Source: Phycisphaerae bacterium
GTDB lineage: Bacteria > Planctomycetota > Phycisphaerae > UBA1845
NCBI GenBank assembly: GCA_013360585.1
Contig: JABWBH010000037.1
Location: 1-64,000, forward strand
DNA length: 64,000 nt
Reading direction: 5' to 3'
The notes below the pieces were generated by a model that saw nothing but the letters and a program-made list of their open reading frames with translations, was not told the origin of the DNA and ran no database searches. Position numbers and translations under genes: made by a program. Shown in pieces: positions 6,375 to 34,086 of this stretch (position 1 is its first letter; each line of letters opens with the position of its first letter).

Positions 6375-8207
6375 TCACGGACACGCGTACGCCAACTCGT
6401 CCGTCGCTCCGCAACCCCAGGCGGCGGTGGCGAGGCCTGCGCCCTGGGGGACGCCGGTGAACTTCGCCTTGCCCTTGCCACGGTCGTTGAGGACGCCGGC
6501 GAATTCCCGGCCGGTGGAGAGTGTGACAAGGTAGGTATCGCCGGAGCGGCCTCCGCTGAGGATGACGACGAGCGTGAAGGTGCCCGCACCCTGCTTGCAG
6601 CGGACCTTTTTGATCCGCTCGCCGCCCGTGCAGGGGCAGCCGTCCGACGAGCAGATGAGAAAGTCCGCGTCGCTTTCGTCGGCGCCGGTGCGGCCGTCGG
6701 CGTCATGCACCACGAGGCGCAGGCGGCCCTGATCGGTGGGCAGATCGGGCACGGTCCACGCGAAGCCGCCGGTAGGGGGGAGGTCTTCGGCGACGATGGT
6801 GTCGAAAGTGTCACCGCCGTCGGTCGAGAGCAGGATGTCCACGGACGTCACGCCTTCGTCGTCGTCGCTGATCCAGCTCACGTCCACGCTGTCGCCGCCG
6901 CGCAGCACGTCGCCGCCGCGGAGGTTCTTGAGGTAGACGGTCGGGTTGCGTCCGCCGGGCGGGGCGGGCATGTGCATGACGATGCAGTGCAACACGCCGG
7001 CGGCGGTGACGATCGCCTGCGCGTCGATCTGCACGATCGTCTTGTCCGGCAGAGCGGCTTCGTAGACGGTGAGGGCTTCGGCATTGTGCTGGCGGACGGA
7101 ACTGTTCGTGTAGGACGGGATCATGACGACATCGTTGCACATGACGACGTTGGTGTACGTGTAATGCGTCCCGGAGACGCTGCGCGCGGGGGTGCGGAAG
7201 ATGCGGTAACCGCGCGCGGCAAGGTCGTCCGCCGCGCGGTCGCAGATGCGGTCCTGCGACGAGCCGTCGTTGAACGGCCAGTCGGAGATGATGATCGCGT
7301 CGTCGGCGATGACCTGCATCCACATGTCGATGTGCTGCGTCGCGTCCACGGTGCGGTCGAAGGGGTTGAAGAAGGTGGTGTCCAGGTTCTGGAACTCGCG
7401 CCACAACTCGTGAATCTGCTGCTCGGTCTTGTCGGGGTTTTCGTTGTTGATCAGGCGGGTGGTGAAGGACCGGCCGAGGGCGTCGAGGTGGAAGTTCCCG
7501 CCGCCGTGCGTCAGCGGAATCTCATACAGCGCGTGGTTCCAGACCGTGCGCCAGAAGAAGGGCTGATCGTCGTCGCGCGGGCGCGGACGGTTGTAGCGAT
7601 GATCGACGATCGCGCGGCATCCGCCTTCGACGACGTACCGCGGGCCGTAGTCGCGGATCCAGATCGTGTCGGTGGCGACGAGGTGCGTGCGGACGCGGGC
7701 CATGTCGGCGCCGGCGTTGGAAAGCTGCACGAGGGCGTCATCCCGGTCGGTCGTGTCGTCGCACATGACGTACACGTCGGCGTCGCCGGTGGTGGTGATG
7801 TGCCGCGCCATCTGGGCGAGGATCAGCTTCCACGAGGCGTTGCCCTCCCAGGCGACGAGGATGCCCTGCATCGGTTCATACTCCGCCGGACAATGCACCG
7901 GTCCGGTCGGAGGGACGACGGCGCGCTGCGGCGGTGCGGGCGGGAAGGCCTTCAGGTAGCGCAACTCATCGTCGGTGAGATTCCGCGGCAGCGCATCGCC
8001 CTCGGTCAGCGCATCCGCGGGGCGCGGCGGAGCGGCCGATGAAGCCGTCACCGGATCGGCCACGCAGAACGTCACCGCGACAAAACCGCAGAGCAGCGCT
8101 ACGCCAACGATCCGCGGCAGACCACGCCCCTCCGGGCGCCCCGTCGTCGAAATCAACATGACAACCCTCCTGTTGGACGTTCCCCCCGGGGGCTGATGCT
8201 GTGCCAT
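6375..8207 (-). CDS. Secreted peptidylarginine/agmatine deiminase-family protein with C-terminal domain shared in this window
   Basis: 610 aa; signal-like N-terminus; 'TIWIRDYGPRYVV', 'THGGGNFHLD', 'AAGVLHCIVMHMP' catalytic-type motifs of the PAD_porph family; Ig/BNR-like linker; C-terminal 'IKKVRCK...CP'. Confidence 0.88.
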   Translation of the reverse strand: MAQHQPPGGTSNRRVVMLISTTGRPEGRGLPRIVGVALLCGFVAVTFCVADPVTASSAAPPRPADALTEGDALPRNLTDDELRYLKAFPPAPPQRAVVPPTGPVHCPAEYEPMQGILVAWEGNASWKLILAQMARHITTTGDADVYVMCDDTTDRDDALVQLSNAGADMARVRTHLVATDTIWIRDYGPRYVVEGGCRAIVDHRYNRPRPRDDDQPFFWRTVWNHALYEIPLTHGGGNFHLDALGRSFTTRLINNENPDKTEQQIHELWREFQNLDTTFFNPFDRTVDATQHIDMWMQVIADDAIIISDWPFNDGSSQDRICDRAADDLAARGYRIFRTPARSVSGTHYTYTNVVMCNDVVMIPSYTNSSVRQHNAEALTVYEAALPDKTIVQIDAQAIVTAAGVLHCIVMHMPAPPGGRNPTVYLKNLRGGDVLRGGDSVDVSWISDDDEGVTSVDILLSTDGGDTFDTIVAEDLPPTGGFAWTVPDLPTDQGRLRLVVHDADGRTGADESDADFLICSSDGCPCTGGERIKKVRCKQGAGTFTLVVILSGGRSGDTYLVTLSTGREFAGVLNDRGKGKAKFTGVPQGAGLATAAWGCGATDELAYACP

Positions 8208-8232
8208 GATAGCGTCCGACGGGGGGCGTAAT

Positions 8233-8266
8233 CAAAAACCCGCCTGGCGCTGGGCGCCAGACGGGT
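8233..8266 (-). terminator. Rho-independent terminator of the 8303-9172 gene
   Basis: Minus-strand ACCCGTCTGGCG-CCCAG-CGCCAGGCGGGT (12-bp stem with one G-U) followed by TTTTTG. Confidence 0.8.
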
Positions 8267-8302
8267 CTCATTATCCTGCAATGGCAGGCTGTGCTCCGAA
8301 AC

Positions 8303-9172
8303 TTACGGGCAGATGAAGACGCGCGAATCCTCAGTGCCGCAATCCCACTCCGCCGTCGCTTCGTTCGGACCGCTGCCGACGCCGAAGAACTTGAACTTCG
8401 CCACGCCGTTGCTGTTGGCGAACTTGCTGAGCTGCTGCCCGCTGGCCAGCGTCACCGTGACGCGGTCTCCCGGGTTGGCGCCTTCGGTGTTCACGATCGC
8501 CTTCAGGCTGCCGTCATTGCGCAGCTTGCACTTCGCCTTGCGGATCACTTCGTTGCCCGTGCAGGAGGCGATCTGGAAACCGACGCCGTAGAAGCCGTTG
8601 TTGGCGGCTGAGAAATTGCTCGGGATCTCAAAGATGCCGTTGCTCGGCGAGAACGTCGCGTCGATGTAGGTGAGGTTCGGGTGAACCGTCTGCGACACGT
8701 TGAAGTCCAGGCAGGACGTCTGACCCGCGCCGTTGAAACCGCCCACGATGTAGCCCTGACCGGCCGGCAGGGTCGTCGGCGTGATCTTCACAATGCGCCA
8801 GATGCCGTCGAGCGGCGCGCCGGCGCCCGCCGGGATCGTCACGTGCGTCGAGGCGATCAGCGAGCCGTCCGGACGGAAAATACCGACTTCATGGGCGCGC
8901 TCCAGACCATCGAGGTTGTCGTCATGCCACGCCATCGCCACCACCGTCACCGGCGCATTGACGTTGAACGCCCAGCCGATCGTCTGATTGTTGTTGCCGC
9001 CGCACGAGCCGCTGCCGGGCGTGAAGTCCAGCGCGTTCGCGCCGTTCGACACCACCGGGTTGTCGTCGATCACGCCCTCGACGGCGTCATCGGCCGGATC
9101 CTCGCTCTGCGCCTGAACCGCCGTGGCGCAAAGCGCGCAAACCAACATCCCCCTCCAAAGCTTCCGAATCAT
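8303..9172 (-). CDS. Secreted hypothetical protein with shared C-terminal domain
   Basis: 289 aa; signal peptide MIRKLWRGMLVCALCATAVQAQ; C-terminal 'VIRKAKCKLRNDGSLKAIVNTEG...FICP'. Confidence 0.8.
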   Translation of the reverse strand: MIRKLWRGMLVCALCATAVQAQSEDPADDAVEGVIDDNPVVSNGANALDFTPGSGSCGGNNNQTIGWAFNVNAPVTVVAMAWHDDNLDGLERAHEVGIFRPDGSLIASTHVTIPAGAGAPLDGIWRIVKITPTTLPAGQGYIVGGFNGAGQTSCLDFNVSQTVHPNLTYIDATFSPSNGIFEIPSNFSAANNGFYGVGFQIASCTGNEVIRKAKCKLRNDGSLKAIVNTEGANPGDRVTVTLASGQQLSKFANSNGVAKFKFFGVGSGPNEATAEWDCGTEDSRVFICP

Positions 9173-9702
9173 AACCTGTCCTCCTCTTTCTGAAGTGTCG
9201 CCGTCTGGGACGAGACTTGAATGAAAACTAACCGCCCGACGCCACGAATGCGCCGCTTCTCCAGCCCACGGTTGCCTCTCCTCCCCGAAGGATGGCTCCG
9301 ACTTTATCCGTCAGCTTTATAAGACGCAATCCGCACCGATTACTGTCACGTTAGATTCAGGCGAAGACTCCGCCGCATTCGTGAGAGTGAAATAAGCAGT
9401 TGATCCCGCAATAAGTTAAGCGTTGCTTCAAGATCGTCGGAGCAGGGGGCGTAAGAACACTCCAGAGTCTCCACTGGACTCCGGTTGACGGGCTTTGGAT
9501 TCGCATGAACGTACGATCATGCCCGGAAATCGACGGGATTGCCTGTGCCCCCGAAGATCCCTCCGCAAGTCCTATCCCCGGAGGATCACCGCTCAATTCG
9601 GGAACGCGAACCTCCTGTCCGCTCGTGCGGAGCAGATCGGCGCGCTCCGACTTGAAAGTGCAAAGAAGCCTGCAACTTCCCGCGATCGTGAACTAAGGAC
9701 GA

Positions 9703-10641
9703 TCACGGTGCGTAGATGGCCTTGCCCATCAGGGAGAGGATCAGCTCGGTCGCCAGTTTGGCGGTTGTGTTGCGGTTGTCCAGCGCGGGGTTCGTCTCGA
9801 CGATGTCCAGCGCGATCACCCGGTCCGCTCGCTCCGCCAGCATCTCCATCACGAGGTGCGCCTCGCGGTAACTGAGTCCGCCGGGGACGGGGGTTCCGGT
9901 TCCCGGGGCCGTCGCGGGGTCGATCACGTCCATGTCGAACTGGACATAGACGCCCGCGGTTCCGGTCGTGACGACGTCGATCGCCTGCCGCATGACCGCG
10001 GACATGCCCTGCTGGTCAATGTCGCGCATCGTGAAGACCCGGACGTGGTTCTCCTTCAGCGCTCGACGTTCCCCGGGATCAAGATCGCGGACACCGACCA
10101 GAGCCACGTGTTCAGGCCGGACCTTCGGACCCGACGCATGAAGGTTCACGAACTCCGGATTGCCCAGACCGAGCGCGACCGCCAGGCCCATCCCGTGAAT
10201 ATTGCCGCTCGGGGTGGTGTCCGGCGTGTTCATGTCACCGTGGGCGTCGATCCAGAGCGCCCCGATCGCGGCGGCGCGTCGGCGGTAGTGCGCGGCGGCC
10301 CCGGCGACGCTGCCGATCGCGATGCTGTGATCGCCGCCGAGGACCAGCGGGAACTCTCCGACCTCCAGCGCCTGCTCCACGGCACGAGCGAGACGGCGGT
10401 TCACATCCAAGACCGGTTCAAAGAAGCGCAAGGTGGGATCGCCGGCGTCGAGGGTCTCGAAGACGCCGGTCTCGATGTCGCCGCCGTCGCGGACCGTGTG
10501 CCCGAGGTGCTGAAGGCGGCGCTGCACGCCGGCGATGCGGATCGCGGACGGACCCATGTCCACCCCACGATGTCCGGCGCCCAGATCCAGCGGCGCTCCG
10601 ATGATGCGTACCTGGCGCGGTTGCACGGGATGTTCCTTCAC
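9703..10641 (-). CDS. rocF: Arginase
   Basis: 312 aa; 'LVLGGDHSIAIGS', 'ALWIDAHGDMNTPDTTPSGNIHGMGLA', 'QFDMDVIDPATAPGTGTPVPGGLSYRE'. Confidence 0.92.
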   Translation of the reverse strand: MKEHPVQPRQVRIIGAPLDLGAGHRGVDMGPSAIRIAGVQRRLQHLGHTVRDGGDIETGVFETLDAGDPTLRFFEPVLDVNRRLARAVEQALEVGEFPLVLGGDHSIAIGSVAGAAAHYRRRAAAIGALWIDAHGDMNTPDTTPSGNIHGMGLAVALGLGNPEFVNLHASGPKVRPEHVALVGVRDLDPGERRALKENHVRVFTMRDIDQQGMSAVMRQAIDVVTTGTAGVYVQFDMDVIDPATAPGTGTPVPGGLSYREAHLVMEMLAERADRVIALDIVETNPALDNRNTTAKLATELILSLMGKAIYAP

Positions 10642-10708
10642 CTTGAGAGGGGCGGGTCATCCGCCCGGAAACGTCATTCTGCGGGCATCACCCCTGGCGC
10701 GCCTCGAT

Positions 10709-10790
10709 GCGGCTGAGAGGACTCGAACCTCCACGCCTTGCGGCACCAGATCCTAAATCTGGCGCGTCTGCCAGTTCCGCCACAGCCGCG
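10709..10790 (-). tRNA. tRNA-Leu (anticodon UAG)
   Basis: Reverse complement GCGGCTGTGGCGGAACTGGCAGACGCGCCAGATTTAGGATCTGGTGCCGCAAGGCGTGGAGGTTCGAGTCCTCTCAGCCGCA; acceptor GCGGCTG/CAGCCGC, anticodon loop TTTAGGA, variable arm, T-loop GGTTCGAGTCC. Confidence 0.95.
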
Positions 10791-10883
10791 AACGAGGCCC
10801 GGCGCCGGACGATCGATCCGGCGTGTCTGATTATCCGCCGCCGATCCGACAATGACAATTCAGCAGACGACGCCGAGACGCAT

Positions 10884-11684
10884 TCAGGATTTTCCGGCAG
10901 CGGCGATGGCGGGCGCTCCGTGCGGCGGAAGGTCGGCACCCAGGGACTGCGCCACCGTGGCCTGAAGGTCGCCCCACGTCTTCTCGCGGTCGAAATTGAT
11001 CGTCGGCGGCGCCAGGATTCCCCCGGACATGACCACCTTGATCGCGTCCTCGACGCTCCAGTCCAGCTCGATCAGGTCGCTGCGGCGGACGACGAAGACG
11101 AAACCGGTCGTCGGGTTCGGCGTGGTGGCGATGAAGCAGGTGCAAAGCTCGTCGCCGGACTTGGCGTCCCGGGCCACCCCGGTCACAAATCCGATCGAGC
11201 GGCAGTTCGGCTCGGGGAAGGGAACCAGCGCGACGCGTTGAAAGTTCGTCTCCTGCTCCCCGCCGAAGGTGACCAGGATCTTCTTGCAGGACCGGTAGAC
11301 GGTCTTGACCAGCGGAACGCGGTCCAGGATCCGCTCCATCGCGTCAATGACCCGCCGACCGACGAAGTGCGCCGCGAAAAGGCCCACCGCATAAAGCAGC
11401 CCGACCGTCAGAAACACCGATGCGACCGCGATCGTCCACTGAATTGCGGGATTCTTGAGCTGCTCGCCGTGAATCCCCTCCCAGGTGATGCCGAGGGCGT
11501 CCGGCATGTACTTGACCCAGCCGCCGTCGAGCACGCCGTAAACGACCCACTGCGAGGAGTCGCGCATCAGCTCGAAGAGAAACCGGACGATCACCCACGT
11601 CACGTAGATCGGCAGGATCGTGATCAGGCCGGTGGTGACGCGGGCCTTCAGCAGCTTCTTGAACGTGTTGGCGACTCGACTCAT
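10884..11684 (-). CDS. DUF502-family membrane protein
   Basis: 266 aa; two TM segments; 'GLITILPIYVTWVIVRFLFELM', 'RVPLVKTVYRSCKKIL', 'CTCFIATTPNPTTGFVFVVRRSD'. Confidence 0.85.
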   Translation of the reverse strand: MSRVANTFKKLLKARVTTGLITILPIYVTWVIVRFLFELMRDSSQWVVYGVLDGGWVKYMPDALGITWEGIHGEQLKNPAIQWTIAVASVFLTVGLLYAVGLFAAHFVGRRVIDAMERILDRVPLVKTVYRSCKKILVTFGGEQETNFQRVALVPFPEPNCRSIGFVTGVARDAKSGDELCTCFIATTPNPTTGFVFVVRRSDLIELDWSVEDAIKVVMSGGILAPPTINFDREKTWGDLQATVAQSLGADLPPHGAPAIAAAGKS

Positions 11685-11785
11685 GCGGATGACTGCGTGC
11701 GGACTCGTCGGCGGCCCGCGGATTCACCGCGCGGCGCGACTTCGTCCTGAAAACGATAGACGTCGCGGAAACGCCCGTCAACGCG

Positions 11786-12643
11786 CTACGCCACCGACGC
11801 GAACGGCCGAAGGCGCGCCACCAGCTCCGACACATCCTTCGGTTTGCGCGCCAGATCGATCGGAAGGAACACGCCGTGATTGTGATCGCTGGCGATGATC
11901 AGCATCCGGTCGTGCAGCACGTCGTATCCGGATTCCTGCGGCTGATGTCCGCAGACGAAAAAGTCGCACCCGAGCATCAGGCGCAGCGCCTCCAGCTCCT
12001 CCGCCGTCTGATACCGCCCCCACACCAGCAGGTACCCCGATCCTGGTTCGACCAGGTCGTGCTCCTGCGTCGGACGCGCCAGCACGCCGGGGTCGAACCG
12101 CGGCAAGTCGCGCGGTGACGGCAGCGAGTGCGCGACGAACACCCCCGTCGCCGTCCGGGCTGCAAGGGGCAGCGAGCGGATGAACTCCGCGATCGCGATG
12201 AGCAGTTCCGTCGCGGCGCTGTCGAACGCCCGGCGGATGCTGCGCTCGAACTCGAACGTCGCGATCCGCCCGTTCTTGGCGATCTCGTGCCCGGTCAACT
12301 GCGACAGCTCATGATTGCTCTGCAGAAAATGAACCTGATCCGGGTGATCGCACTTCCAGCGGGCCGCCTCGATCAGCAGCTCGTAAGAGGTGTCCGGCGC
12401 ATCCCACGCCGCCGGCTCCTCGTGGATCAACTCGTGCAGAATCACGTGACGCGCCGGAGCATGCTCCAGGTCGCAATACCGCTGGAGCTTTGCGAAGTTG
12501 CGGCGATGACCGTGCATGTCCCCTGTCACGACGAGCTGTCCGTAAGCGGGGAAGTGCAGAGTGGATCCCTTCAGCAGGGATTCCTCGCGGTTCAGCTCGG
12601 CGGCGTGCCGCAGCGTCTTAATCGCTTCATGCGCGTCGATCAT
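11786..12643 (-). CDS. Calcineurin-like metallophosphoesterase (PPP-like)
   Basis: 285 aa; 'LVVTGDMHGHRRNF', 'FLQSNHEL', C-terminal 'FVCGHQP'. Confidence 0.8.
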   Translation of the reverse strand: MIDAHEAIKTLRHAAELNREESLLKGSTLHFPAYGQLVVTGDMHGHRRNFAKLQRYCDLEHAPARHVILHELIHEEPAAWDAPDTSYELLIEAARWKCDHPDQVHFLQSNHELSQLTGHEIAKNGRIATFEFERSIRRAFDSAATELLIAIAEFIRSLPLAARTATGVFVAHSLPSPRDLPRFDPGVLARPTQEHDLVEPGSGYLLVWGRYQTAEELEALRLMLGCDFFVCGHQPQESGYDVLHDRMLIIASDHNHGVFLPIDLARKPKDVSELVARLRPFASVA

Positions 12644-13584
12644 CCCGTCGTCTCAATAATCCCCGGAGCGTCGCTCCCTTCGGCCAAATCCTGGTCTTCG
12701 TCGCCGCCCTGCGCCATCTCCTCCGGTTGTCCCACGGCGCGACGACGGCGGAACTCCTCGCGCTGGCGCTGCCAGATATCCCGGATCATCCGAAGGCGAT
12801 GCTGCACCTGCACCATGTCCGCCGGACGCTTCGACGGATCCTCCCGGCAGCAATCCATCACCAGATTCGACAGCGCCAGCGGAATCTTCGGATTGATCTC
12901 GATCGGTACGACCGGTGCGTCCTTGTCCACGATGGCGATACCGCCCCGGGCGTCCGCGCCGCGGACCTGGGTCGGGTACGTTTTCAGCGTCAGAAGGTAG
13001 TACATGGTCGCCCCGAGGTTGAAAACGTCCGTCCGCTGGGTCAGCGCCCCACGCTCGACCTGCTCCGGCGCAATGTAATCCGGCGTCCCCTGAATCCGGT
13101 CCTTCCGATGCCCGATCAGACACGCCTGCCCGAGGTCGATGATCTTCACGACCCCTCCCGGGGCGATCATGATATTGTTCGGCTTGATGTCGGTGTGGAC
13201 GTACCCGGCCTGGTGCAACGCGCCAAGTCCCTCGCAAACCCGAAGGAAAAGGTTCAGGAACGCCGCGAGGCGATTCGGCATCGATCGGTCCAGGCCGGTC
13301 CCGGGAACATACTCCATCACGAGATATAATTCTTTGATCTGAAGAAGCTTGCGAACGCGATGCACATCGAAGCACTTTCGGATGACCGGGTGATCGACCT
13401 TCGTCGAGACTTCGTACTCGGTCTCCGCCTGCTCCAGGAAGCGATCATCCTCGGCGCTGTTGCGGGTCACGCGCTTGACCGCATACCGCTGCCCCGTCTT
13501 CAGATCCACGGCAAGATAGATGCGCGAGCGCGCACCGGTTCCGATCCCCTGTGTCAGCCGCAACCCCGCAAGCATCCCGCTCAC
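12640..13584 (-). CDS. Serine/threonine protein kinase (Hanks type)
   Basis: 314 aa; 'YAVKRV', 'GYVHTDIKPNNIMI', 'IIDLGQACLIG', 'GTPDYIAPEQ'; 4-nt overlap with the downstream phosphoesterase. Confidence 0.88.
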   Translation of the reverse strand: MSGMLAGLRLTQGIGTGARSRIYLAVDLKTGQRYAVKRVTRNSAEDDRFLEQAETEYEVSTKVDHPVIRKCFDVHRVRKLLQIKELYLVMEYVPGTGLDRSMPNRLAAFLNLFLRVCEGLGALHQAGYVHTDIKPNNIMIAPGGVVKIIDLGQACLIGHRKDRIQGTPDYIAPEQVERGALTQRTDVFNLGATMYYLLTLKTYPTQVRGADARGGIAIVDKDAPVVPIEINPKIPLALSNLVMDCCREDPSKRPADMVQVQHRLRMIRDIWQRQREEFRRRRAVGQPEEMAQGGDEDQDLAEGSDAPGIIETTG

Positions 13585-13737
13585 GAATCCCCTCTCGCCT
13601 CCCGAATCTCTGACTCCGCCTAACTTAATGCCTCATCGACCGCCGGCCAACTTTGCCTTGTGCCCAATGCGGCCGGAGCGCATCGGGCGGCGGGAGGTGC
13701 GGTTCAGGACGGGGCCGTCGGGGCTACGATCGCGACG

Positions 13738-14088
13738 TCACGCGGGCGGCGCGGGGGGCGTCGTCCGGACCGCGACAATTCTGAGGGACTCAACTTCGAC
13801 TTCGTCCAAGGCGCGGTCCGCAAGGGTTCGCCGGAGATCCTCCAGGTGCCGCTCCCGGTCCGCCAGCCAGCGAACCGGCGCCCACGCACTGTGCTCGTCC
13901 GTTACGCACAGCACCTCCGGAAGGAACTCCACATCATCCAGATCCAGCCCGGTCAGCATGACCGCGCGGGCGCATTCGTCCGTCAACGCCGCGTACTCGC
14001 GCCGCAGGTCGGACAGATCGAGCCGCGCCAGTCGTCCCGTCCGGTTAACTTCCACGCTGGCGATGATTTCGGGGCTGGGGTTTGACAT
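13738..14088 (-). CDS. Hypothetical protein
   Basis: Likely start MSNPSPEIIASVEVNRTGRLARLDLSDLRREYAAL; compact protein between kinase and PQQ genes. Confidence 0.55.
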   Translation of the reverse strand: MSNPSPEIIASVEVNRTGRLARLDLSDLRREYAALTDECARAVMLTGLDLDDVEFLPEVLCVTDEHSAWAPVRWLADRERHLEDLRRTLADRALDEVEVESLRIVAVRTTPPAPPA

Positions 14089-14101
14089 CAGGGTTCGTGG
14101 C

Positions 14102-15460
14102 TCACTTTCCCGGCAACTGACGAATGCAGTAGAGATGAGCGGAGGTGCGGATGAAAAGATCGGCGCCGGCGGGAGCGGGCGTCGAAATCGTATAACCGTC
14201 GTCCAGCATGTTCGTCGCCAGGATGTTGAAGGCGTCGCCTGCGGCAAGCACCGTCGTGGTCGCGATCTCGTTGGTGATGTAGATGCGCCCGTCCGCCAGG
14301 ACCGGCGAGGCGCTCACCGTCCCGTCGGCGGTGCGTTCAGGCCCCCACAGCACCTCGCCCGTGGACGCCTTAAGACACACGGCCACGCCTCGGTCGTCCA
14401 CCAGGTAGATCCGCGTTCCGTCCGTCACGGGGCTGGGCACGTCCGGCGCGCCTTTGCCTTCGTACTTCCACGCAAGATGACTCCCGGTCACATCGCCTGT
14501 CCCCCCAAGTCGGTACGCCAGCATCGGCTTGACCCGCGTCGGGGCGATCACCAGTTCCGCCGCAACCACCGGCGACGGGACGATCCGGTAGTTCCCGGCA
14601 AGCTGCGGATTCAGCCCGCCGCCGCGCCAAAGCTCACGCCCCGTCAGCGGATCGTGTCCCGTGACGTAATTCGCACCGACGACGATGACCTGCTCCCCTT
14701 GCGGCGTGCGGGCGATCGTCGGCGTCGTGTACGCGTCCGGACACTCCCGCTGGGCGTCCGTCTTCCGCCCCTCCTTCCAGAGGACGTTGCCGCTGTCCGC
14801 ACCCACTGCCGCCAGGTACGACTCTCCCGAGGCCTGAAGCACCTGAATCAGGATGCGGTCCTTCCACAGCACCGGCGACGACGCATACCCCCACGCCGGC
14901 AGGAACGCGCCCCACTCCGCCGCGAGATCTTTCCGCCAGAGTTCCTTTCCGCCGAAGTCCACAGCCGCCAGCACGCCCGTCCCGCTCAGCACCCAGACCG
15001 TCTTCCCGTCCGTCACCGGCGACGGTGAGGACAGATTCTGCTTCCCGAAAAGCCGGTTCCCGTCGTCGAGGCGATATTCCCAGACCGGCTTGCCGTCACG
15101 CCGGTCGAAACACAGCAGGAGGAGGTCTGGACCGCCGGGGTTCCGTCGCGTCATGTTCGGCAGCACTCGGGCGACGTCGCCGTCCGCCTCGGCTTTCGGA
15201 GCGGACGGGGACGTGACGAAGACGCGCTCGCCGGAAACGATCGGGGACGAACCCGCCCACGAGGGCAGCGCGCGTTTCCACGCCACGTTGCGGTCTTCGC
15301 CCCACGTCAGCGGCGGCTTCGCGCTTCGCGACGCGCCGGTCAGTTCCGGACCGCGCCACTGCGGCCACGCTTCATCGCTTTCGGTGCGGGCCGACGCGAC
15401 CGGCGCAGTCAACGCGACGCATACCAGCATTAAGGCGCATCTTTGTGGTTCTTCAAGCAT
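14102..15460 (-). CDS. Secreted PQQ-binding-like beta-propeller protein
   Basis: 452 aa; signal peptide; 'WPQWRGPELTGASRSAKPPLTWGEDRNVAWK', repeated 'GKELWRKDL / NVLWKEGRK / GRELWRGGG / GEVLWGPE' blades. Confidence 0.85.
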   Translation of the reverse strand: MLEEPQRCALMLVCVALTAPVASARTESDEAWPQWRGPELTGASRSAKPPLTWGEDRNVAWKRALPSWAGSSPIVSGERVFVTSPSAPKAEADGDVARVLPNMTRRNPGGPDLLLLCFDRRDGKPVWEYRLDDGNRLFGKQNLSSPSPVTDGKTVWVLSGTGVLAAVDFGGKELWRKDLAAEWGAFLPAWGYASSPVLWKDRILIQVLQASGESYLAAVGADSGNVLWKEGRKTDAQRECPDAYTTPTIARTPQGEQVIVVGANYVTGHDPLTGRELWRGGGLNPQLAGNYRIVPSPVVAAELVIAPTRVKPMLAYRLGGTGDVTGSHLAWKYEGKGAPDVPSPVTDGTRIYLVDDRGVAVCLKASTGEVLWGPERTADGTVSASPVLADGRIYITNEIATTTVLAAGDAFNILATNMLDDGYTISTPAPAGADLFIRTSAHLYCIRQLPGK

Positions 15461-16488: not shown

Positions 16489-16533
16489 CGCCCGGGCGGC
16501 ATTCATCTCGCTTCAGGAGGGCCCTGAAAGGGA

Positions 16534-18052: not shown

Positions 18053-20056
18053 TTACGGACACGTCACCGTCGTCGTCAGCCCGCACGCCGGCCGGGTCAG
18101 CGCGACCGTGTGATTGCCTCCGCTGAACGGACCGGCGAAGAGCTTCGCCTTGCCGTCGAGCACGCCGAGGTTGAAGGACTGCGCGTCGATCATCACCGTG
18201 ATCGTCTGTCCGTCGAAGCTGTTGTCACGGAACTTGACGACGACCTTGATGTCGCGGTTGTCCTTGCACACGGCGCGGAACTTCTTGACCTTGTCGCACG
18301 GGCACTGTCCGCGGCAGGTCGTGCCTTCGCCGGCGAAGCTGCCGTTGCAGTCGCGCTCGAGAACGATCTCGCAACGAGCGTCATCCACGCAGCAGGCGCC
18401 CGGTTGCGGGCAGGAGTGCGTCCCGCACTCGGTCCCGAAGTTCCAGTTTCCGCCGGCATTGACGCATTCGAGCAGAAGCAGGTCCGCACATGATCCGTCG
18501 TCGAAGCAGCACGCGCCCGGTTGCGGCTCGGAACCGCCCGCGGCCACGACGGCCTCGTAAGCGTCCACGCGGCCGTAGCCGAACGTGTTGTCATTGCCCG
18601 GTGAACCGAGGTCCACCGCCGTCTGCTCCAGGATCGCCTTGATCTCGAAGTGCGCCAGCCCCGGCGCGGCCTCAAGGATCAGCGCCACGGCGCCCGCGAC
18701 GTGCGGCGTCGCCATCGATGTCCCCGACAGGTTGGTGTAACCGTTGCACGGGCTGTGCCGGCAGGACGTCGTATCCACGCCCGGCGCCGAGATCGTCGGC
18801 TTGATGCACCCCGGCGGATGCGGGCAATCACGCCACGGATCGATGTTCTCCCACGTCACCGGTCCGCAGCTCGAAAAACTCGCGATCCGGTCGTTGCAGT
18901 CGGTCGCCCCGACCGTAATCACGTCCGGAACATCGCCCGGCGTGCGGACGTTGTCCGGCGGGTTCCCGCAGCCCTCGTTCCCCGCGGCATAAATCACGAT
19001 TACGCCGGACTGAATGCTGTTCTCGACCACCTCACGCCACGTCCGGCGGTCCGGGTTCACGCTGTGAGGCCAGCCGAGGCTCGCCGTCGTCGCATGCGCG
19101 CCGTTCTCCAGCGCATACTGGTGGCACAGCCAGACCGACAACTCGCCCGAGAAGCTGTTCCAGAACTTCGTCGTCATGATCTGAACGTCCGGCGCCATCC
19201 CCGTCTGTGTACCGTTGGCGCCGTCACCGCCCACCGTTCCGGACACGTGCGTGCCGTGACCGAAATTATCCGAGATGTTCTCACTGCTGCCGTTGCCGTC
19301 GAAGCTCCACCCGTGAACGTCGTCCACGTAACCGTTGCCGTCGTCGTCGATGTCGTTGTTCGCAATCTCGCCCGGGTTCGTCCAGATCTGGTTGCGAAGA
19401 TCCGGGTGATCGATGCAGCAACCCGTGTCGATCACCGCGATCACCGCGTTGCGCCCGGTGATGCCCAGCTCGTTCCACACCCGCGGCGCGCTCATCCGGT
19501 CCACCCCGCATTCCACCGCCAGCGGCTGCGCCTGATTCTCCGACACCTCATACGGCAGCACATCCTCCAGCGGCAGCGCCCGATCCCAGTTCAGGTAATC
19601 CACGTCCTCACGCGCCGCCAGCTTCAGCGCCATCCCGGGCGTCACGCGCGCCCCGATCACGTTCGTGATCCACAGCGCGTGAATGTACTCGCGCCCGACC
19701 TCACCACGCCCCTGGCCTTCGATCAGCGTCGAAAGCACACCCGCCTGCGAGCGGCGCGCCACTCCCTTCAGTACGTCCATCACCGCCCGGCGGCGCGCGT
19801 TCTTGTCCGCGATCAGCCCCGAGAACGCCAGGTCTTCCGGCGTGGCGCGATCCTTCATCACGATCGACACCGGGATCAGCTCGCCCGGCTCCGCGTTCGC
19901 CACCACCGACAGCAGGTCGGCACGCAGCTTGTTGCTCAGGTTCGCCGGAATCCCGTCTTTCGGCAGCGCAGCCGCGAACGCCGAGAACCCGACGCTCGCC
20001 GCCAGCCCCGCACCCAGCACTTGCCTCAACCCTCTCATTGATCTCCCCTTTCCCAA
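18053..20056 (-). CDS. Subtilisin-like (S8) serine protease with Cys repeats and shared C-terminal domain
   Basis: 667 aa; 'AVIDTGCCIDHPDL', 'FGHGTHVSGTVGG', 'LSGTSMATPHVAGAVALI'; two 'PGACC.DD..C' repeats; C-terminal 'KVKKFRAVCKDNRDIKVVVKF...TVTCP'. Confidence 0.92.
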   Translation of the reverse strand: MGKGRSMRGLRQVLGAGLAASVGFSAFAAALPKDGIPANLSNKLRADLLSVVANAEPGELIPVSIVMKDRATPEDLAFSGLIADKNARRRAVMDVLKGVARRSQAGVLSTLIEGQGRGEVGREYIHALWITNVIGARVTPGMALKLAAREDVDYLNWDRALPLEDVLPYEVSENQAQPLAVECGVDRMSAPRVWNELGITGRNAVIAVIDTGCCIDHPDLRNQIWTNPGEIANNDIDDDGNGYVDDVHGWSFDGNGSSENISDNFGHGTHVSGTVGGDGANGTQTGMAPDVQIMTTKFWNSFSGELSVWLCHQYALENGAHATTASLGWPHSVNPDRRTWREVVENSIQSGVIVIYAAGNEGCGNPPDNVRTPGDVPDVITVGATDCNDRIASFSSCGPVTWENIDPWRDCPHPPGCIKPTISAPGVDTTSCRHSPCNGYTNLSGTSMATPHVAGAVALILEAAPGLAHFEIKAILEQTAVDLGSPGNDNTFGYGRVDAYEAVVAAGGSEPQPGACCFDDGSCADLLLLECVNAGGNWNFGTECGTHSCPQPGACCVDDARCEIVLERDCNGSFAGEGTTCRGQCPCDKVKKFRAVCKDNRDIKVVVKFRDNSFDGQTITVMIDAQSFNLGVLDGKAKLFAGPFSGGNHTVALTRPACGLTTTVTCP

Positions 20057-22196: not shown

Positions 22197-22211
22197 GGGA
22201 AAACTCCTTGC

Positions 22212-25091: not shown

Positions 25092-25125
25092 ACGCGGTTG
25101 CGACCCGAACCGCGCCCGCCTGTCC

Positions 25126-25231
25126 TTAACAGCCCGTTGAAAAAGGGGTGCGCCTCCCTCCGGGAGGCGAATGTCATCGGGAAAAACCGGTATCACAAAA
25201 ACCGATCCCGGGTTCTTCAGCGGGCCGTTAA
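25126..25231. mobile_element. MITE-like element with 16-bp terminal inverted repeats
   Basis: TTAACAGCCCGTTGAA (25126-25141) versus reverse complement of TTCAGCGGGCCGTTAA (25216-25231), 14/16 match; internal hairpin CGCCTCCC/GGGAGGCG at 25151-25169. Confidence 0.5.
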
Positions 25232-25294
25232 CGGCGCGAAGATAGGTCAAGAGCAAAAAGGCGTTCTTAATTCCGCCCTGTCCCGGAGGGCTGA

Positions 25295-25711
25295 AGCGGC
25301 GTCACAAAAGGACGCCGACGCTCCGACGTCTTTTTCCTCGAGGACGCGGGCATGCGCAGCGACGCGGCGCTGCAACGCACGGGGCGCGCGAAGGATCGGA
25401 CGCCCATCGCAGCCGCCAGCGGCAGGCGGCAGTCGGTCAACGCCATCTCTGCGGTCCAGGCGCGCCGCGCGTTCCGGTGCAAGCGGTGCACCAGGCGACG
25501 AAACGCGGCGCAGTTCACTGGTTTCCTGAAGAATCCGATGAAACCCCACCGTCGGCCGGTGTTTCCGGTGGCGGACGGGCGCCCGGCGCACATCGCCGGG
25601 GTTGCGGCAGCACCTGTGCAGAAGCTCAAAGGAAAGCAGGAACTGCACTTTTTTCCCGACCGCGCCCCGGATCTGAACCCGGAGGAGTTTGCGGGGTATC
25701 ATCATGTTCAA
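25295..25711 (+). pseudogene. IS630-family (DDE) transposase remnant
   Basis: 'DVFFLEDAGMRSDAALQRTGRAKDRTPIAAASGRRQSVNAISAVQ...NAAQFTGFLKNPMKPHRRPVFPVADGRPAH...KLKGKQELHFFPDRAPDLNPEEF' contains the three IS630 DDE blocks; no N-terminal HTH in frame. Confidence 0.8.
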
Positions 25712-25969
25712 TCCGCCAGGCAAAGCCCTTCTCGTTCATGTTTCTCACTTCCTGCCAGCCCTGATCCTTCTCGATCGGGAACCGAAGGGGTCGCGAAACT
25801 CTGCTCGCTTTTCCTCGCGGGCGCCCCCCCCGGCGAACTGACGATCAAGCGGACAGGTCGATTCCGCCGATGATAGCCCCAACGATTGACCGATCGCAGA
25901 GGCGTCGGCAGGGATGCGGACCGGGAAAGCGCGGCGCGGCGCCGGGACCGGTCCGACGGAGGCGGAATT

Positions 25970-26053
25970 ATGTTTGATTTCATTGCCTGGGTGGCGACGG
26001 TGTTCGGGTTGATCTACATTCTGTTCATGGGCGGTCTGGTTCAGACTGCGTAG
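25970..26053 (+). CDS. Small hydrophobic peptide A (27 aa)
   Basis: ATG preceded by GGAGG; MFDFIAWVATVFGLIYILFMGGLVQTA*. Confidence 0.55.
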   Translation: MFDFIAWVATVFGLIYILFMGGLVQTA

Positions 26054-26099
26054 GTAGATGAGGTCGGACGGTGGGGCGGGCGACGGCGCGGCGATCGAA

Positions 26100-26158
26100 C
26101 CGCCGCGGATCCGATGATACGCGTTCAGTTTCGCGGGTCTTCCCCTCATCCGCGGCGG
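26100..26158. repeat. Inverted repeat upstream of small peptide B
   Basis: CCGCCGCGGAT (26100-26110) and ATCCGCGGCGG (26148-26158), 11-bp perfect, 37-nt loop. Confidence 0.6.
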
Positions 26159-26291
26159 ATTCGGGATCCTGCCGGGGCCGTGACGGGAGGGACTTCCGGT
26201 GCGCTCTTCGCTAACCCTGAATCGCCCGGAAATCGGCGGATCGGTGGCCGAAGCCGCAGCATTCGGAACACCGGGATTAAGGAGAAAAAAC

Positions 26292-26375
26292 ATGGATGGA
26301 TTAGTGCTCGCACTGGCCGGTCTCGTGCTTGCGGTTCTGTTCGGGCTGATCGACGTGCTGATTCAGACGAGCTAA
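26292..26375 (+). CDS. Small hydrophobic peptide B (27 aa)
   Basis: ATG preceded by AAGGAG; MDGLVLALAGLVLAVLFGLIDVLIQTS*. Confidence 0.6.
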   Translation: MDGLVLALAGLVLAVLFGLIDVLIQTS

Positions 26376-26397
26376 GCCGTAGCAGTCCGCCGTCAGC

Positions 26398-26421
26398 AGC
26401 CCGTTTTTCAACGGGCGGCTG
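26398..26421. repeat. IS-end-like hairpin CAGCCCGTTTTTCAACGGGCGGCTG
   Basis: GCCCG/CGGGC stem; TTTTTCAACGGGC at 26404-26416 is a 13-bp perfect inverted match to 25132-25144. Confidence 0.55.
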
Positions 26422-26630
26422 GGGCAGGCAACCTCTCCGTGACAACGACCCGGGTTGCAATGCGCGCGTGCTTTGCAGTTTCGCGAGGATTCCGCCCCCT
26501 TTCAGCAACTCTGAGTGCCTCGCGGCTGAAGGGGATCACAGGCAGGGCCGATCCCCGCGTTGCCGTTACCGAGCCGGCACGTTGATGTTCCGGACCCTGA
26601 TTCAGCCCGCCCGCCGTTGTGTTGTATTCT

Positions 26631-27779
26631 TCACGCCGCGGCTCCCTCCGCGACCGGCATCCCCATCCGCCGCAGCCACCGGAAGTGCGACGCCACGCCG
26701 GCGAAAAAACTGTGGTTGACGCGGTAATTCAAACCGAACTCCTTGCAGGTCTGCGCCACGATCGGCGCGATGGCCGGGTAGTGGGCGTGGGAGATGTGCG
26801 GGAAGAGGTGATGCTCCGTCTGAAAGTTCAACCCGCCGAGCAGCCACGACAGGACGCGGTTTCGCGGCGCGAAGTCGACCGTGGTCTGCACCTGGTGCGC
26901 CGCCCAGCTCGTCTGCATCCGGCCGTTCTCCTCGAGCGGCATGGGGAACTCCGCTTCCTCGACGCAGTGCGCCAGTTGGAACACGACGCTGAGCACCACG
27001 CCCTGAATGAGCATCGCCAGGACGTAGAACAACACCACCGTGGACCACGGATGCACCCACATGGGCACGCCGAACGCCAGGGTGAAGAACGTGACCTTTC
27101 CGCCGAAGAAAAACAGCAGATCCCAACCCTTGGGGCGGGCGAAGCGGTGTTCGCCGATGCGCCCGGTGATGAGGCTCCGGAAATCATCGACGAAGTGCCA
27201 CTTGATCGGCAGGAACCCGTACAGTGCCCACATGTAGAAATGCTGGAAGCGGTGCAGGCGCAGGCGCTTCTGGTGCGGCGAAAGCCGGCCGAGAACGCCG
27301 ACGTCGATGTCGTCGTCGTGACCGGTGATGTTCGGATACGTGTGATGAAAGGCGTTGTGCTTGCGCGCCCAGATGTAGGAGCTGCCTCCGAGCAGATCGA
27401 GCGCCATGGCGGAGAGACGGTTGACCCACCGGCGGTCCGAGTAGGCGCCGTGCCCCCCGTCATGCTGAATGTTGAACCCGATGCCCGCACACGCAAGCCC
27501 GAGCAACGCCGCCAGCGGCAGGGCGACCCCCCACGACGTCGTAAAAAACACCAGCACCACGTAAGTCGCAACGAAGCCGCCGAAGACGACGGCCGATTTC
27601 AGGTACATCTGCGGACAATCGCGCGGTTTGCGCCCGGTCCGGGCGAAGTACTCCTCGACGCGCTGGCGTAGGGCGTTGCGGAAGCCGTCGTTCGACTCAA
27701 ACTTGGGCGGGTTGCACACCGGGCTGGGCGCGACAATGTCGCCGGGAACCGCCGATGGAACGCTCGAAAGTGAACTCAT
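26631..27779 (-). CDS. Fatty acid desaturase
   Basis: 382 aa; histidine boxes HDGGHGA, HNAFHHTYPN, QTEHHLFPH; four TM segments. Confidence 0.9.
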   Translation of the reverse strand: MSSLSSVPSAVPGDIVAPSPVCNPPKFESNDGFRNALRQRVEEYFARTGRKPRDCPQMYLKSAVVFGGFVATYVVLVFFTTSWGVALPLAALLGLACAGIGFNIQHDGGHGAYSDRRWVNRLSAMALDLLGGSSYIWARKHNAFHHTYPNITGHDDDIDVGVLGRLSPHQKRLRLHRFQHFYMWALYGFLPIKWHFVDDFRSLITGRIGEHRFARPKGWDLLFFFGGKVTFFTLAFGVPMWVHPWSTVVLFYVLAMLIQGVVLSVVFQLAHCVEEAEFPMPLEENGRMQTSWAAHQVQTTVDFAPRNRVLSWLLGGLNFQTEHHLFPHISHAHYPAIAPIVAQTCKEFGLNYRVNHSFFAGVASHFRWLRRMGMPVAEGAAA

Positions 27780-27941
27780 GCCTGAGTGTCGTCTCCTTCA
27801 AAAGAACCACGGATACCGCGGGAGCATGAAAGGGGACGGGCGTGTCAGGCCCGCCCCCCTCGGTTCGCCCAGATCCGTCTGCCTGGAAAGTCCTCCCGAG
27901 ATCGACCGTCACGCAGCGGCGTCGGCCGCTCCTGCGGTGAA

Positions 27942-27968
27942 TTCGCGCGGGCTGAAGCCCGCGGCTCG
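27942..27968. repeat. Dispersed hairpin repeat, family 2, copy 1
   Basis: TTCGCGCGGGCTGAAGCCCGCGGCTCG; inverted copy at 58053-58079. Confidence 0.7.
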
Positions 27969-27977
27969 GGTTTCGGT

Positions 27978-28310
27978 CTAGTACGACCGACGGCCTGAAC
28001 CCCCGCGGGACTTCCCGCCACCGTAACCGCCGCCGCCGTAACCGCCGCCGCTCGGGCGGCTCTCGCGCGGTTTGGCCTCATTCACGGTGAGCGCACGACC
28101 GTCGTGCTGCTGACCGTTGAGCGCCGAGATGGCGGCTTCGGCTTCGGAACTCGAGCTCATCTCGACGAACGCGAAGCCTTTGCTGCGCCCGCTGTCGCGG
28201 TCCATGATGACCTGCGCCGAATCCACGGTCCCGTGCGGCGTAAACAGCTCGCGGAGCTGCGCGTCATCGACGCTGTAACCCAGATTCCCGACATACAACT
28301 TTTTGCCCAT
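27978..28310 (-). CDS. RRM-domain RNA-binding protein with glycine-rich tail
   Basis: 110 aa; 'KKLYVGNLGYSVDDAQLRELFTPHG', 'SKGFAFVEM', tail GGGYGGGGYGGGKSRGGSGRRSY. Confidence 0.93.
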   Translation of the reverse strand: MGKKLYVGNLGYSVDDAQLRELFTPHGTVDSAQVIMDRDSGRSKGFAFVEMSSSSEAEAAISALNGQQHDGRALTVNEAKPRESRPSGGGYGGGGYGGGKSRGGSGRRSY

Positions 28311-28722
28311 GAAGATTTCTCCTGCGTAAGGGCTGATCGATCCACATCAGCTTTCGGGATCGAACGAAAGGGGCCAACATGACCCTGCGGTAGGAGTTGG
28401 CGAAAGAGGCGAGAAGGCAGGCTCTTTTAGCAGAGCGTGAACATCAAACCCGGTCGTCAGACCTAACCATGCCGAGCATGATACCTCGATCCGGTTCGGA
28501 CGCAAGTCCCTCAGGGCAACCGCATTCTGACATCTGCCGCTCGCCTAGCATGGCCAGGGGAGTACACCAGGCCATGCCACCCGGCCGTCGGCGCGAAAGA
28601 GGCGCCGGGAAACGGCCCGGCACATCAGAATCGGGAAGCCGTCGCGGCGCCGGCGCCGCGGGTCGGGAAGGTCAAGCGTGATCCTGCTTCTCGCTTTCTC
28701 GCGGACGACGCGGCTCCGCTCG

Positions 28723-30549
<1,827 letters not shown>

Positions 30550-30552
30550 GAA

Positions 30553-30590
30553 AGCTCCTAGCTGCCAGCTCCTGGCTCCTAGCTGTTAGC
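30553..30590 (-). repeat. Heptanucleotide repeat (AGGAGCY) in the glmS leader
   Basis: Minus strand AACAGCT AGGAGCC AGGAGCT GGCAGCT AGGAGCT TTC ATG. Confidence 0.75.
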
Positions 30591-30600
30591 CGCCCCATCC

Positions 30601-30622
30601 GAGCCGCGCCCGTCAGGAAGCG
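30601..30622 (-). repeat. Dispersed intergenic repeat, family 1
   Basis: GAGCCGCGCCCGTCAGGAAGCG (reverse complement CGCTTCCTGACGGGCGCGGCTC). Confidence 0.65.
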
Positions 30623-30905
30623 CGCCGGGTGATATCGGGTTTCGAATCTTTTCCGCCGCGCCAGCGCCGCATCCCGGATCTCACGCCCCAAATCCAGCCT
30701 GCTCCGAGCCGCGGTTGCACGATTCCGTGCGGCGACTCCTTCGCCCCCCGCGCCGATTCTGCGCTCCCGCCACGCGGTCTACGTCATTATATCGGCATAC
30801 CGAACCGAGGACACTCACCGGCTCTTCCGACCCGCGGAGACCTTCCGCCGCCGTTTTCAGGAGATCCTTGCGCCCCGCCGCCGTTTTCGGTAAGAAGCGG
30901 TCCAA

Positions 30906-31379
30906 ATGAGCGTCAAAACCAACCAGATTCAGGAACTTCTCCCGCGCAGCGACCGGCGACCGGCGGTGCGCCTGGCGAGCGTTCTGTGTGGCGGTCTCAC
31001 CGTGTTGCTCACGTTGGCGGAACTTGCCAGCCGGGCGTTGATGTTCGGGTGGCAGGGGAAGACCGTATCCGCGGCGCTGGTCCACGGTTGGTTTCATGTG
31101 TGGCGCTGGGACGCAACGTACCCGAGCGGGCTGATCATCGACGGCGCAGGCGCCTCGATGGCCGGCTGGTACTTTCCCAAGGCTGTGGCCGCGCCGCTGT
31201 GGCCCCTCGCGCTGACCGGACTCGTCGCGACCATCGTCCTCTGGCGCCGCAGTCACCGCCCGCCGCCGGGGCATTGCCACGCTTGCGGATATGATCTGAC
31301 GGGGAACAGGTCAGGGAGATGTCCGGAATGCGGGACGGTGATGCCCGCAACGGACGTCATCAGCGCGTCGAAAGAATGA
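30906..31379 (+). CDS. Membrane protein with C-terminal zinc ribbon
   Basis: 157 aa; TM segments; 'CHACGYDLTGNRSGRCPECGTVMP'. Confidence 0.75.
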   Translation: MSVKTNQIQELLPRSDRRPAVRLASVLCGGLTVLLTLAELASRALMFGWQGKTVSAALVHGWFHVWRWDATYPSGLIIDGAGASMAGWYFPKAVAAPLWPLALTGLVATIVLWRRSHRPPPGHCHACGYDLTGNRSGRCPECGTVMPATDVISASKE

Positions 31380-31577
31380 AGCGACGTCATGATGCAGCTT
31401 CAGGATGTGCCGGTCTGTGCCGCAGACCCGCCGTGTCGCAAGGCCCGCCACCGCCTCATCATGTTCCCGCTCGAAGCAATACAGACGCCTCGCGCCTTTC
31501 GATCGCTCCGCTTGGCCGCCGCGCCGCGCGGCGATAGCCTGATTGCCGGCGATCAGGTCGGAGTCCGCTTGAGGGGT

Positions 31578-31653
31578 TTGAGGGCCTCGCTCCTTCACGG
31601 TCGCGGGTCGGTTACTTGAGGGCCTCGCTTCCTTACCGTCGCGGCTCGGTCAT
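31578..31653. repeat. Tandem pair of about 38-bp repeats containing family 1
   Basis: TTGAGGGCCTCGCTCCTTCACGGTCGCGGGTCGGTTAC followed by TTGAGGGCCTCGCTTCCTTACCGTCGCGGCTCGGTCAT. Confidence 0.75.
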
Positions 31654-31726
31654 TCGGGAACGAATGAACCACGGAACCGACGCGAGAGGGATCGAAAACA
31701 ATCAGAAGGATCGAACACGAACGAAC

Positions 31727-32050
31727 ATGACGACGCGGCTTGAGAAACTGAACCAGATGCTGGAGCGCGAACCGCAGGACGCGTTTCTCAACTTCGGCGT
31801 GGCGATGGAGCTGGTGAAAGCGGAGGACTACGCCGGCGCGGTCGCCCGGTTCGACCGACTGCTGTCGATCGATCCGGATTACACGGCCGGATATCATCAT
31901 AAGGCGCTGGCGCAGCTCGCCCTGGACCGGATCGCCGAGGCGCAGGCGACGCTGGAGGCGGGGGTCGAGGCCGCCCGGCGGGTGGACAACGCCCACGCCC
32001 TCGCGGAGATGTCGGAGCTGCTCGCCCGGGTCCGCGCCACGCCGCGCTGA
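31727..32050 (+). CDS. TPR-like small protein
   Basis: MTTRLEKLNQMLEREPQDAFLNFGVAMELVKAEDYAGAVARFDRLLSIDPDYTAGYHHKALAQLALDRIAEA. Confidence 0.8.
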   Translation: MTTRLEKLNQMLEREPQDAFLNFGVAMELVKAEDYAGAVARFDRLLSIDPDYTAGYHHKALAQLALDRIAEAQATLEAGVEAARRVDNAHALAEMSELLARVRATPR

Positions 32051-32352
32051 GACAGGGGGGCGCCTTCCTCCGCCGCTCTTCCACCGCGTCCTCTCCCCCC
32101 TGTCGCGCGTCTTCGCTCTTATTTCCCGGTGCGGGGTCTTTGCATCGACTCGGGCGCCGACCTTCCGGTCGGCACGCGGCGCGATCTCGGATCGCGAATC
32201 TCCGGTCCGCGGGGTGCGAAGCAGAGCTTCGTAATCCTGGCGCGCCCGATCTGTTTCTGCATTGTTTTTCAGGCCGGCGGGAACTACGATGTTGGAGTCG
32301 CGTCGGATCGACGCAGCCGGGGTGGGCATGCCTTTCGCTGAGGGGAGCGAAT

Positions 32353-34086
32353 ATGAAGCTTTCGATGATTTGCGTGGCGGGGTTGGGGTTCGCGCTGACG
32401 GGGCTTTCGGCGGCGGGTCAGGAGGCGCAGCCGCCGGCGGATCCGCGCACCGTGCCGCATGAGACGCAGGACATGACGCCGGACGGCGAAGTGGAACCGG
32501 TGGGCGTCTGCCCGGCGGTGCGGTTCGAGTACGGTCAGGGGCGGTACACCACGGTTCAGGTCAACGTCAACGGTCAGGGCGATAACATCCTCGGCGACGC
32601 GGCCAACGAACCGTCGATCGCTGTGGACCCGACGAATCCGAACCGGATGGCGATCGGATGGCGGCAGTTTGACACGGTGAACAACAACTTCCGCGAGGCG
32701 GGGCGGGCCTTCACGACGGACGGAGGGCAGACGTGGACGTTTCCGGGAGTGCTGACAAACGGAACGTTCCGCAGCGACCCGGTGCTGGCGGCGGACCGCG
32801 CGGGGACGATCTACTACTGCACGCTGAAGAACAATTTCCTGTGCGACATGTTCATCTCCAGCGACGGCGGGGCGACGTTCGGCTCGCCGATCGCCGCTTA
32901 CGGCGGGGACAAGGAGTGGATGGCGATCGACACGACCGGCGGGATGGGCGACGGGCACATCTACCTGGCGTGGAGCACGGCGGCGGGCTGCTGCGGGAAC
33001 CGGATTTTTACGCGTTCGACGGACGGCGGGCTGAGCTACCTGAACCCGATCACGCTGCCGAGTTCGCCGATCTGGGGAACGCTGGCGGTGGCGGGGAACG
33101 GCGACCTTTACGTTTGCGGGAGCGACGCGTTCTCCACGTTTATTGTCGTGCGTTCGACGAACGCGGATGACCCCGGGCAGACGCCGACGTTCTCGACGCG
33201 CAACGCTGCAATCAACCTGGGCGGGACGGTCGTGTCGTTCGGCGGACCGAACCCCGAGGGGCTGGCGGGCCAGCTCTACATCGCGGTGGATACGTCCGGC
33301 GGGCCGCGCGACGGACACCTGTACCTGCTCTCCACGGTCGATCCTTCGGGGACGGATCCCGCGGACGTAAAGGTGGTCCGCAGCACGGACGGCGGCGCCA
33401 CCTGGAGCGCGCCCGTGCGGGTCAACGACGATGCGAGCACGACGGCGTGGCAGTGGTTCGGAACGATGTCGATCGCCCCGAGCGGACGCCTTGACGCGGT
33501 CTGGAACGACACGCGCAACACGGGCAACACGTTCCGCTGCCAGACCTTCTACGCGTACTCGACCGACGGGGGCGCGACGTGGTCGCCGAACGAAGCCACC
33601 GGACCAGTCTGGGATTCCAGCGTCGGCTGGCCGCGGCAGAACAAGATCGGCGACTACTATCACATGATCTCGGATGATCTGGGCGCGCATCTGGCGTACG
33701 CGACGACGCTCAACAACGAGCAGGACGTGTATTACATGCGCGTCGCGGTGGACTGCAACGGCAACGGCGTGCATGACGGCGACGACATCGCCTCCGGTCG
33801 CAGCGCGGACGCGAACCGCAACTGGATTCCGGACGAATGCGAAGGGGCGGACTGCGGCCGCATCGACAAGTTCAACGTCGGCTGCACCAACGGGCGGCTG
33901 AAGGCGAAGGTGGTTTCGACGCTGGCGGCGGGGACGATCCTGACGGTGGACAACAACGGCGACCGGCGGACGCTGACGATCAACGACCGCGGCAAGGGGA
34001 AGGTCAAGTGGACCGGTCAGAGCGGCGCGCACACGGTGTTCATTGTCGAGTGTCCGCAGTTCACGCGATCAACGACGTGCAATTGA
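32353..34086 (+). CDS. Secreted BNR/sialidase-like repeat protein with dockerin-like segment and shared C-terminal domain
   Basis: Start MKLSMICVAGLGFALTGLSAAGQ; repeated 'STDGGATW / TTDGGQTW / SSDGGATF'; 'DCNGNGVHDGDDIASGRSADANRNWIPDECE'; C-terminal 'GRIDKFNVGCTNGRLKAKVV...TTCN'. Confidence 0.85.
   Translation: MKLSMICVAGLGFALTGLSAAGQEAQPPADPRTVPHETQDMTPDGEVEPVGVCPAVRFEYGQGRYTTVQVNVNGQGDNILGDAANEPSIAVDPTNPNRMAIGWRQFDTVNNNFREAGRAFTTDGGQTWTFPGVLTNGTFRSDPVLAADRAGTIYYCTLKNNFLCDMFISSDGGATFGSPIAAYGGDKEWMAIDTTGGMGDGHIYLAWSTAAGCCGNRIFTRSTDGGLSYLNPITLPSSPIWGTLAVAGNGDLYVCGSDAFSTFIVVRSTNADDPGQTPTFSTRNAAINLGGTVVSFGGPNPEGLAGQLYIAVDTSGGPRDGHLYLLSTVDPSGTDPADVKVVRSTDGGATWSAPVRVNDDASTTAWQWFGTMSIAPSGRLDAVWNDTRNTGNTFRCQTFYAYSTDGGATWSPNEATGPVWDSSVGWPRQNKIGDYYHMISDDLGAHLAYATTLNNEQDVYYMRVAVDCNGNGVHDGDDIASGRSADANRNWIPDECEGADCGRIDKFNVGCTNGRLKAKVVSTLAAGTILTVDNNGDRRTLTINDRGKGKVKWTGQSGAHTVFIVECPQFTRSTTCN

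Follow-up and report, generated by a model that had tools for sequence, protein, structure and literature searches.

Four secreted proteins encoded in the window, by which we mean the whole 64,000-nucleotide stretch of contig JABWBH010000037.1 analysed here (Phycisphaerae bacterium, of an uncultured planctomycete genus; assembly GCA_013360585.1), share a C-terminal tail that recurs about 90 times in the same genome. From sequence comparison and structure prediction, the chances seem evenly balanced that this lineage-expanded immunoglobulin (Ig)-like module serves to retain secreted proteins at the surface or to assemble them, in place of the dockerin used by relatives; a new tag that keeps enzymes on the cell surface is the probable reading. 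The original prediction placed the four tails correctly (Table 1), three on the minus strand (PAD, DUF4082 and subtilase proteins) and that of the BNR-repeat protein on the plus strand. Their relatedness is also confirmed, as a leave-one-out profile recovered each tail above all 999 of its own shuffles (E-values of 9e-13, 3e-10, 0.0013 and 0.0012 versus 0.03-0.08 for the best shuffles). The module itself is real, but its length of 85-90 amino acids slightly exceeds the roughly 75-85 first proposed because the module includes a first Cys ('CTG..', 'CD.I').

Profile searches revealed a family far larger than the four cases first noticed. The profile of the four tails matched 87 places in the source genome (4.24 Mb) at E ≤ 10, while one built from 74 tails gave 113 matches at E ≤ 1, of which about 93 reached ~1e-8 or lower. 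When the open frames were read, 91 of the 92 copies at E < 1e-8 had 0-3 residues between the domain end and the stop codon, as did 61 of 64 copies in sister genomes and named relatives, where two of the three non-terminal copies are short tail-like fragments. The position of the hits, which had been proposed as a check, thus agreed with expectation: nearly all lie at the extreme C-termini of signal-peptide proteins. A home-made heuristic assigned signal peptides to 87 of 96 carriers versus 39 of 232 control open reading frames, a set that includes spurious frames and makes the contrast a guide only. The carrier bodies are unrelated, falling into 50 similarity clusters and matching 41 Pfam families that include S8 subtilases (7), M12B, M14 and M23 peptidases, PAD, BNR, GSDH, PQQ and PHB esterase proteins, among others.

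AlphaFold models of two divergent tails (predicted local distance difference test scores of 96.3 and 93.8) have the same fold, as the proposed structural check foresaw: an Ig-like, seven-stranded beta sandwich of 85 residues. Foldseek searches against the PDB returned only generic Ig-like neighbours for both models (E ≥ 0.005), including carbohydrate-binding and adhesin domains, and a close structural homologue was therefore rejected. Four Cys columns are near-invariant (86, 83, 88 and 91 of 91 aligned tails), which bears out the predicted terminal 'CP/CN': the last Cys, present in every tail, sits in the final strand and is usually followed by a final Pro, with 52 of 91 tails ending in Cys-Pro. 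Cys1 and Cys3 are lost jointly (p = 8e-5, a value inflated by kinship among tails) and sub-groups gain extra Cys as matched pairs (columns 105-120, 35-66 and 31-89, with values inflated in the same way), as disulfides would predict. The putative bonds are Cys1-Cys3, from this co-loss, and Cys2-Cys4, by elimination. The tails are basic and Lys-rich (median isoelectric point 8.5, mean net charge +2.6, Lys 7.3%), whereas the bodies are acidic (isoelectric point 4.5, charge -5.3 per 85 amino acids, Lys 1.1%). Export of the domain and its folding outside the cell are well-supported predictions.

Distribution among close relatives suggests a link between the tail and dockerins. Among 51 genomes of one Phycisphaerales family, five, from two genera, each have between 77 and at least 104 tail copies (the best 104 candidates were scored per genome, so the highest count is a lower bound), and the other 46 have 0-4; four of the tail-rich genomes come from the window genus and one from another genus. 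PAD orthologues in tail-less genera mostly have dockerin-type ends, some after other domains (loci L137-L140, L143-L147 and L151). Similarly, a homologous subtilase in genome G021 ends in a dockerin (L171), while the homologue in G008 has neither tail nor dockerin. Dockerin_1 counts are 8, 5, 18, 21 and 7 in the tail-rich genomes, whereas 31 relatives have a median of 41 (p = 0.001), and cohesin was found in 1 of 5 versus 23 of 31 (p = 0.034). PEP-CTERM counts are 6, 6, 10 and 8 in the window genus versus a median of 18.5 (p = 0.008), but these comparisons, like those for dockerin and cohesin, rest on two genera and not on independent events. Exosortases are present in the source genome, with only 6 PEP-CTERM hits. 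Cohesin-dockerin pairs hold M12B and M14 peptidases in the planctosome proposed for freshwater planctomycetes (PMC6461901), and enzymes of both classes carry tails in the source genome.

If the tail is indeed a retention tag, the carrier would first be exported by the Sec pathway, after which the domain would fold and be stapled by two disulfides. Outside the cell, the last strand and the basic face, which stays constant, may bind a partner shared by all tails. This partner could be a receptor protein or an anionic polymer of the surface, and binding would keep many enzymes at the cell or matrix. Docking on a common partner is suggested by the dockerin swap, by a position that suits every body and by chemistry that does not vary. 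The earlier suggestion that the domain is lineage-specific and serves C-terminal sorting or anchoring gains partial support from the C-terminal position, the common fold and the lack of a known-domain match. Its broader form is somewhat short of an even chance: an undescribed system by which Planctomycetota anchor or sort ~90 secreted proteins per genome through a dedicated receptor, and that would have replaced most cohesin-dockerin and PEP-CTERM use in two genera.

Several observations weigh against the retention-tag reading. Some tail-less orthologues and homologues have no dockerin, namely L136, a PAD orthologue that simply stops, L168 and L170. Low counts also occur in tail-less relatives (8 dockerins in G025, 6 PEP-CTERM proteins in G004), the tail-rich genera retain some dockerins and PEP-CTERM proteins, and the non-independence of the genome comparisons and the home-made nature of the signal-peptide rule count on the same side. 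One strong internal copy (C3:1312-1551) lies in the middle of an 882-residue FG-GAP-like protein, between two FG-GAP regions, in what looks like a two-gene fusion; in weaker exceptions (L051, L048 and, in a sister genome, L081) a Cys-rich module follows one or two copies. Strict C-terminality could partly stem from the mode of spread, through 3'-end recombination. Finally, no receptor, co-occurring protease, translocon or other machinery was found, and no genome-wide search for one was made.

The tail might instead be an outer-membrane translocation or sorting signal that is read by a dedicated translocon and possibly cleaved, like the C-terminal domain of the type IX secretion system (T9SS) of Bacteroidota, the parallel drawn originally from Porphyromonas. 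Position and fold uphold this parallel: both domains have about 80 residues and form the extreme C-terminus of signal-peptide (Sec) proteins, the T9SS domain solved for RgpB is likewise an Ig-like seven-stranded sandwich (PMC4804311), and the invariant Cys of the tail's last strand would also suit such a signal. At the level of sequence family the parallel fails. The tail differs in its four conserved Cys. Among the hits listed when 74 tails were compared with Pfam and NCBIfam (E ≤ 0.1), none was to a T9SS tail model (Por_Secre_tail, TIGR04183, TIGR04131), and the source genome, which is 97% complete, yielded nothing for SprA (TIGR04189) at E ≤ 10; membership in the T9SS domain family was rejected on these two grounds. 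Two disulfides would also make a rigid unit to pass through a pore, no translocon was found (no genome-wide search for one was made), and the dockerins whose place the tail takes are binding modules and not export signals. We therefore regard a translocation signal as unlikely.

Charge offers another explanation, in which the tail, as an Ig module that binds polyanions or polysaccharides in general, needs no dedicated receptor and keeps acidic secreted enzymes in an anionic matrix. The strong charge contrast between tail and body, the Lys enrichment and the carbohydrate-binding and adhesin domains among the fold neighbours are consistent with this idea, but charge alone leaves the almost exclusive C-terminal location and the invariant terminal Cys unexplained, and about 16% of tails lack a net positive charge; we rate it marginally below the translocation signal. 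Least probable, with only a slim chance of being correct, is a stabilising cap without a targeting role, spread by gene conversion, that is locked by disulfides against carboxy-terminal proteolysis or aids folding. Two predicted disulfides do close the chain end, and unrelated genes show 3'-end DNA copying. Such a cap, however, predicts neither the co-depletion of dockerin and cohesin nor the swap in orthologues, and orthologues in relatives manage without it.

The tail was also compared with characterised families. No Pfam or NCBIfam family reached its cut-off on the tails, including the four in the window (the bodies were named by Pfam), and no paper describing this domain was found in the literature searched. 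Weak profile similarity to Big_3_5 was seen in 15 of 74 tails at E ≤ 0.1 (best E 3e-5); the window proteins had no Big match in the family scan. Big_3_5 and Big_1 (PF16640, PF02369) share the general fold but lack the four-Cys pattern and terminal Cys-Pro, and they usually occur as tandem internal repeats. Like PEP-CTERM, the tail is an extreme C-terminal homology region that has expanded rapidly in paralogues of exported proteins; PEP-CTERM, however, consists of a motif, a transmembrane helix and a basic end, while the tail folds as a soluble domain without these features, so membership was rejected. The GC-type dockerin and Dockerin_1 of Planctomycetota (NF041540, PF00404) resemble it in their C-terminal place on the same secreted enzyme families, in their tens of copies per genome and, for some, in a Cys-Pro end (L140, L144 and L171 end in ...GPCP or ...ITCP). 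They are calcium-binding, helical and EF-hand-like, whereas the tail is all-beta, basic and disulfide-rich, with no sequence relation detected. Membership in Dockerin type I was rejected given the all-beta model and the absence of Dockerin_1 hits among the tails, which lack two calcium-binding F-hand repeats.

Sequence comparison shows that the domain has spread from gene to gene, and there are signs that 3' ends were copied. In sister genomes, unrelated genes share 88-93% DNA identity that is confined to their last 90-170 bases, which points to such copying. Orthologous tails have a median ratio of nonsynonymous to synonymous substitution rates (dN/dS) of 0.21 (28 pairs), which by this measure shows purifying selection on the domain. 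A foreign origin was rejected on composition, as GC content and GC at third codon positions in tails (0.66 and 0.85) are near those of bodies (0.65 and 0.82). The tail also occurs in the Phycisphaerae/Planctomycetota metagenome-assembled genomes Bin_14R, SJ659, BroJett003 and SURF_32 (pattern from a four-member alignment), but 391 other genomes of the phylum gave no match at 1e-5 among the best 13 candidates scored per genome, a scan of reduced sensitivity. As separate observations, partial tail DNA fragments lie near tail genes at L083 and L092 (88-100% identical over 100-160 bases), as if recombination copies tails, and at L036 (G000:C80:62000-74500) the tails of five neighbouring genes, whose bodies are mostly unrelated, are mutually 62-78% identical; a similar run occurs at G003:C6:4700-16300.

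The placement of large exported planctomycete proteomes is poorly known, and here one domain labels ~90 exported proteins of a single genome together. The clean contrast between five tail-rich genomes and 46 others of the family puts a search for the partner, whether by phylogenetic profiling or by pull-down, directly within reach; profiling proved feasible for PEP-CTERM and EpsH (PMC1569441). A dockerin-to-Ig swap on orthologues would furthermore amount to a natural experiment in which one attachment module is replaced by an unrelated one.

Table 1. Tails and tail-carrying proteins in the window.
Feature	Position	Strand	Evidence
PAD_porph-family protein, C-terminal domain	6378..6644	minus	74-tail profile E 3.5e-25; fold modelled
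PAD_porph/agmatine-deiminase-like protein, secreted, tail carrier	6375..8207	minus	Pfam PF04371 E 1.5e-33; signal peptide by heuristic
DUF4082 protein, C-terminal domain	8306..8566	minus	74-tail profile E 1.1e-20
DUF4082 protein, secreted, tail carrier	8303..9172	minus	PF13313 E 9e-7; signal peptide by heuristic
Subtilase, C-terminal domain	18056..18310	minus	74-tail profile E 1.7e-22
S8 subtilase, secreted; GACC Cys-rich repeats then tail	18053..20056	minus	PF00082 E 1.6e-53; signal peptide by heuristic
BNR-repeat protein, C-terminal domain	33841..34083	plus	74-tail profile E 6.6e-20; fold modelled
BNR-repeat protein, secreted, tail carrier	32353..34086	plus	PF13088/PF02012; signal peptide by heuristic

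The start of the BNR-repeat protein was taken as the ATG preceding the signal peptide MKLSMICVAGLGF. Ten neighbouring genes in the window were scanned; PfkB, GcvT and an M56 peptidase were those given a family, and there was no shared export gene. L048 (G000:C27) and L081 encode small proteins with two tandem tail-like domains and a Cys-rich end, and are possible partners or regulators of the tail. Exosortase is near-universal in the order; the window genus (G000-G003) keeps only two, both long, and is without the short exosortase-like forms (about 190-250 amino acids) common in many relatives. Within the window, a BlaR1-type M56 peptidase followed by several EF-hands is encoded at 3005-5425 on the plus strand.
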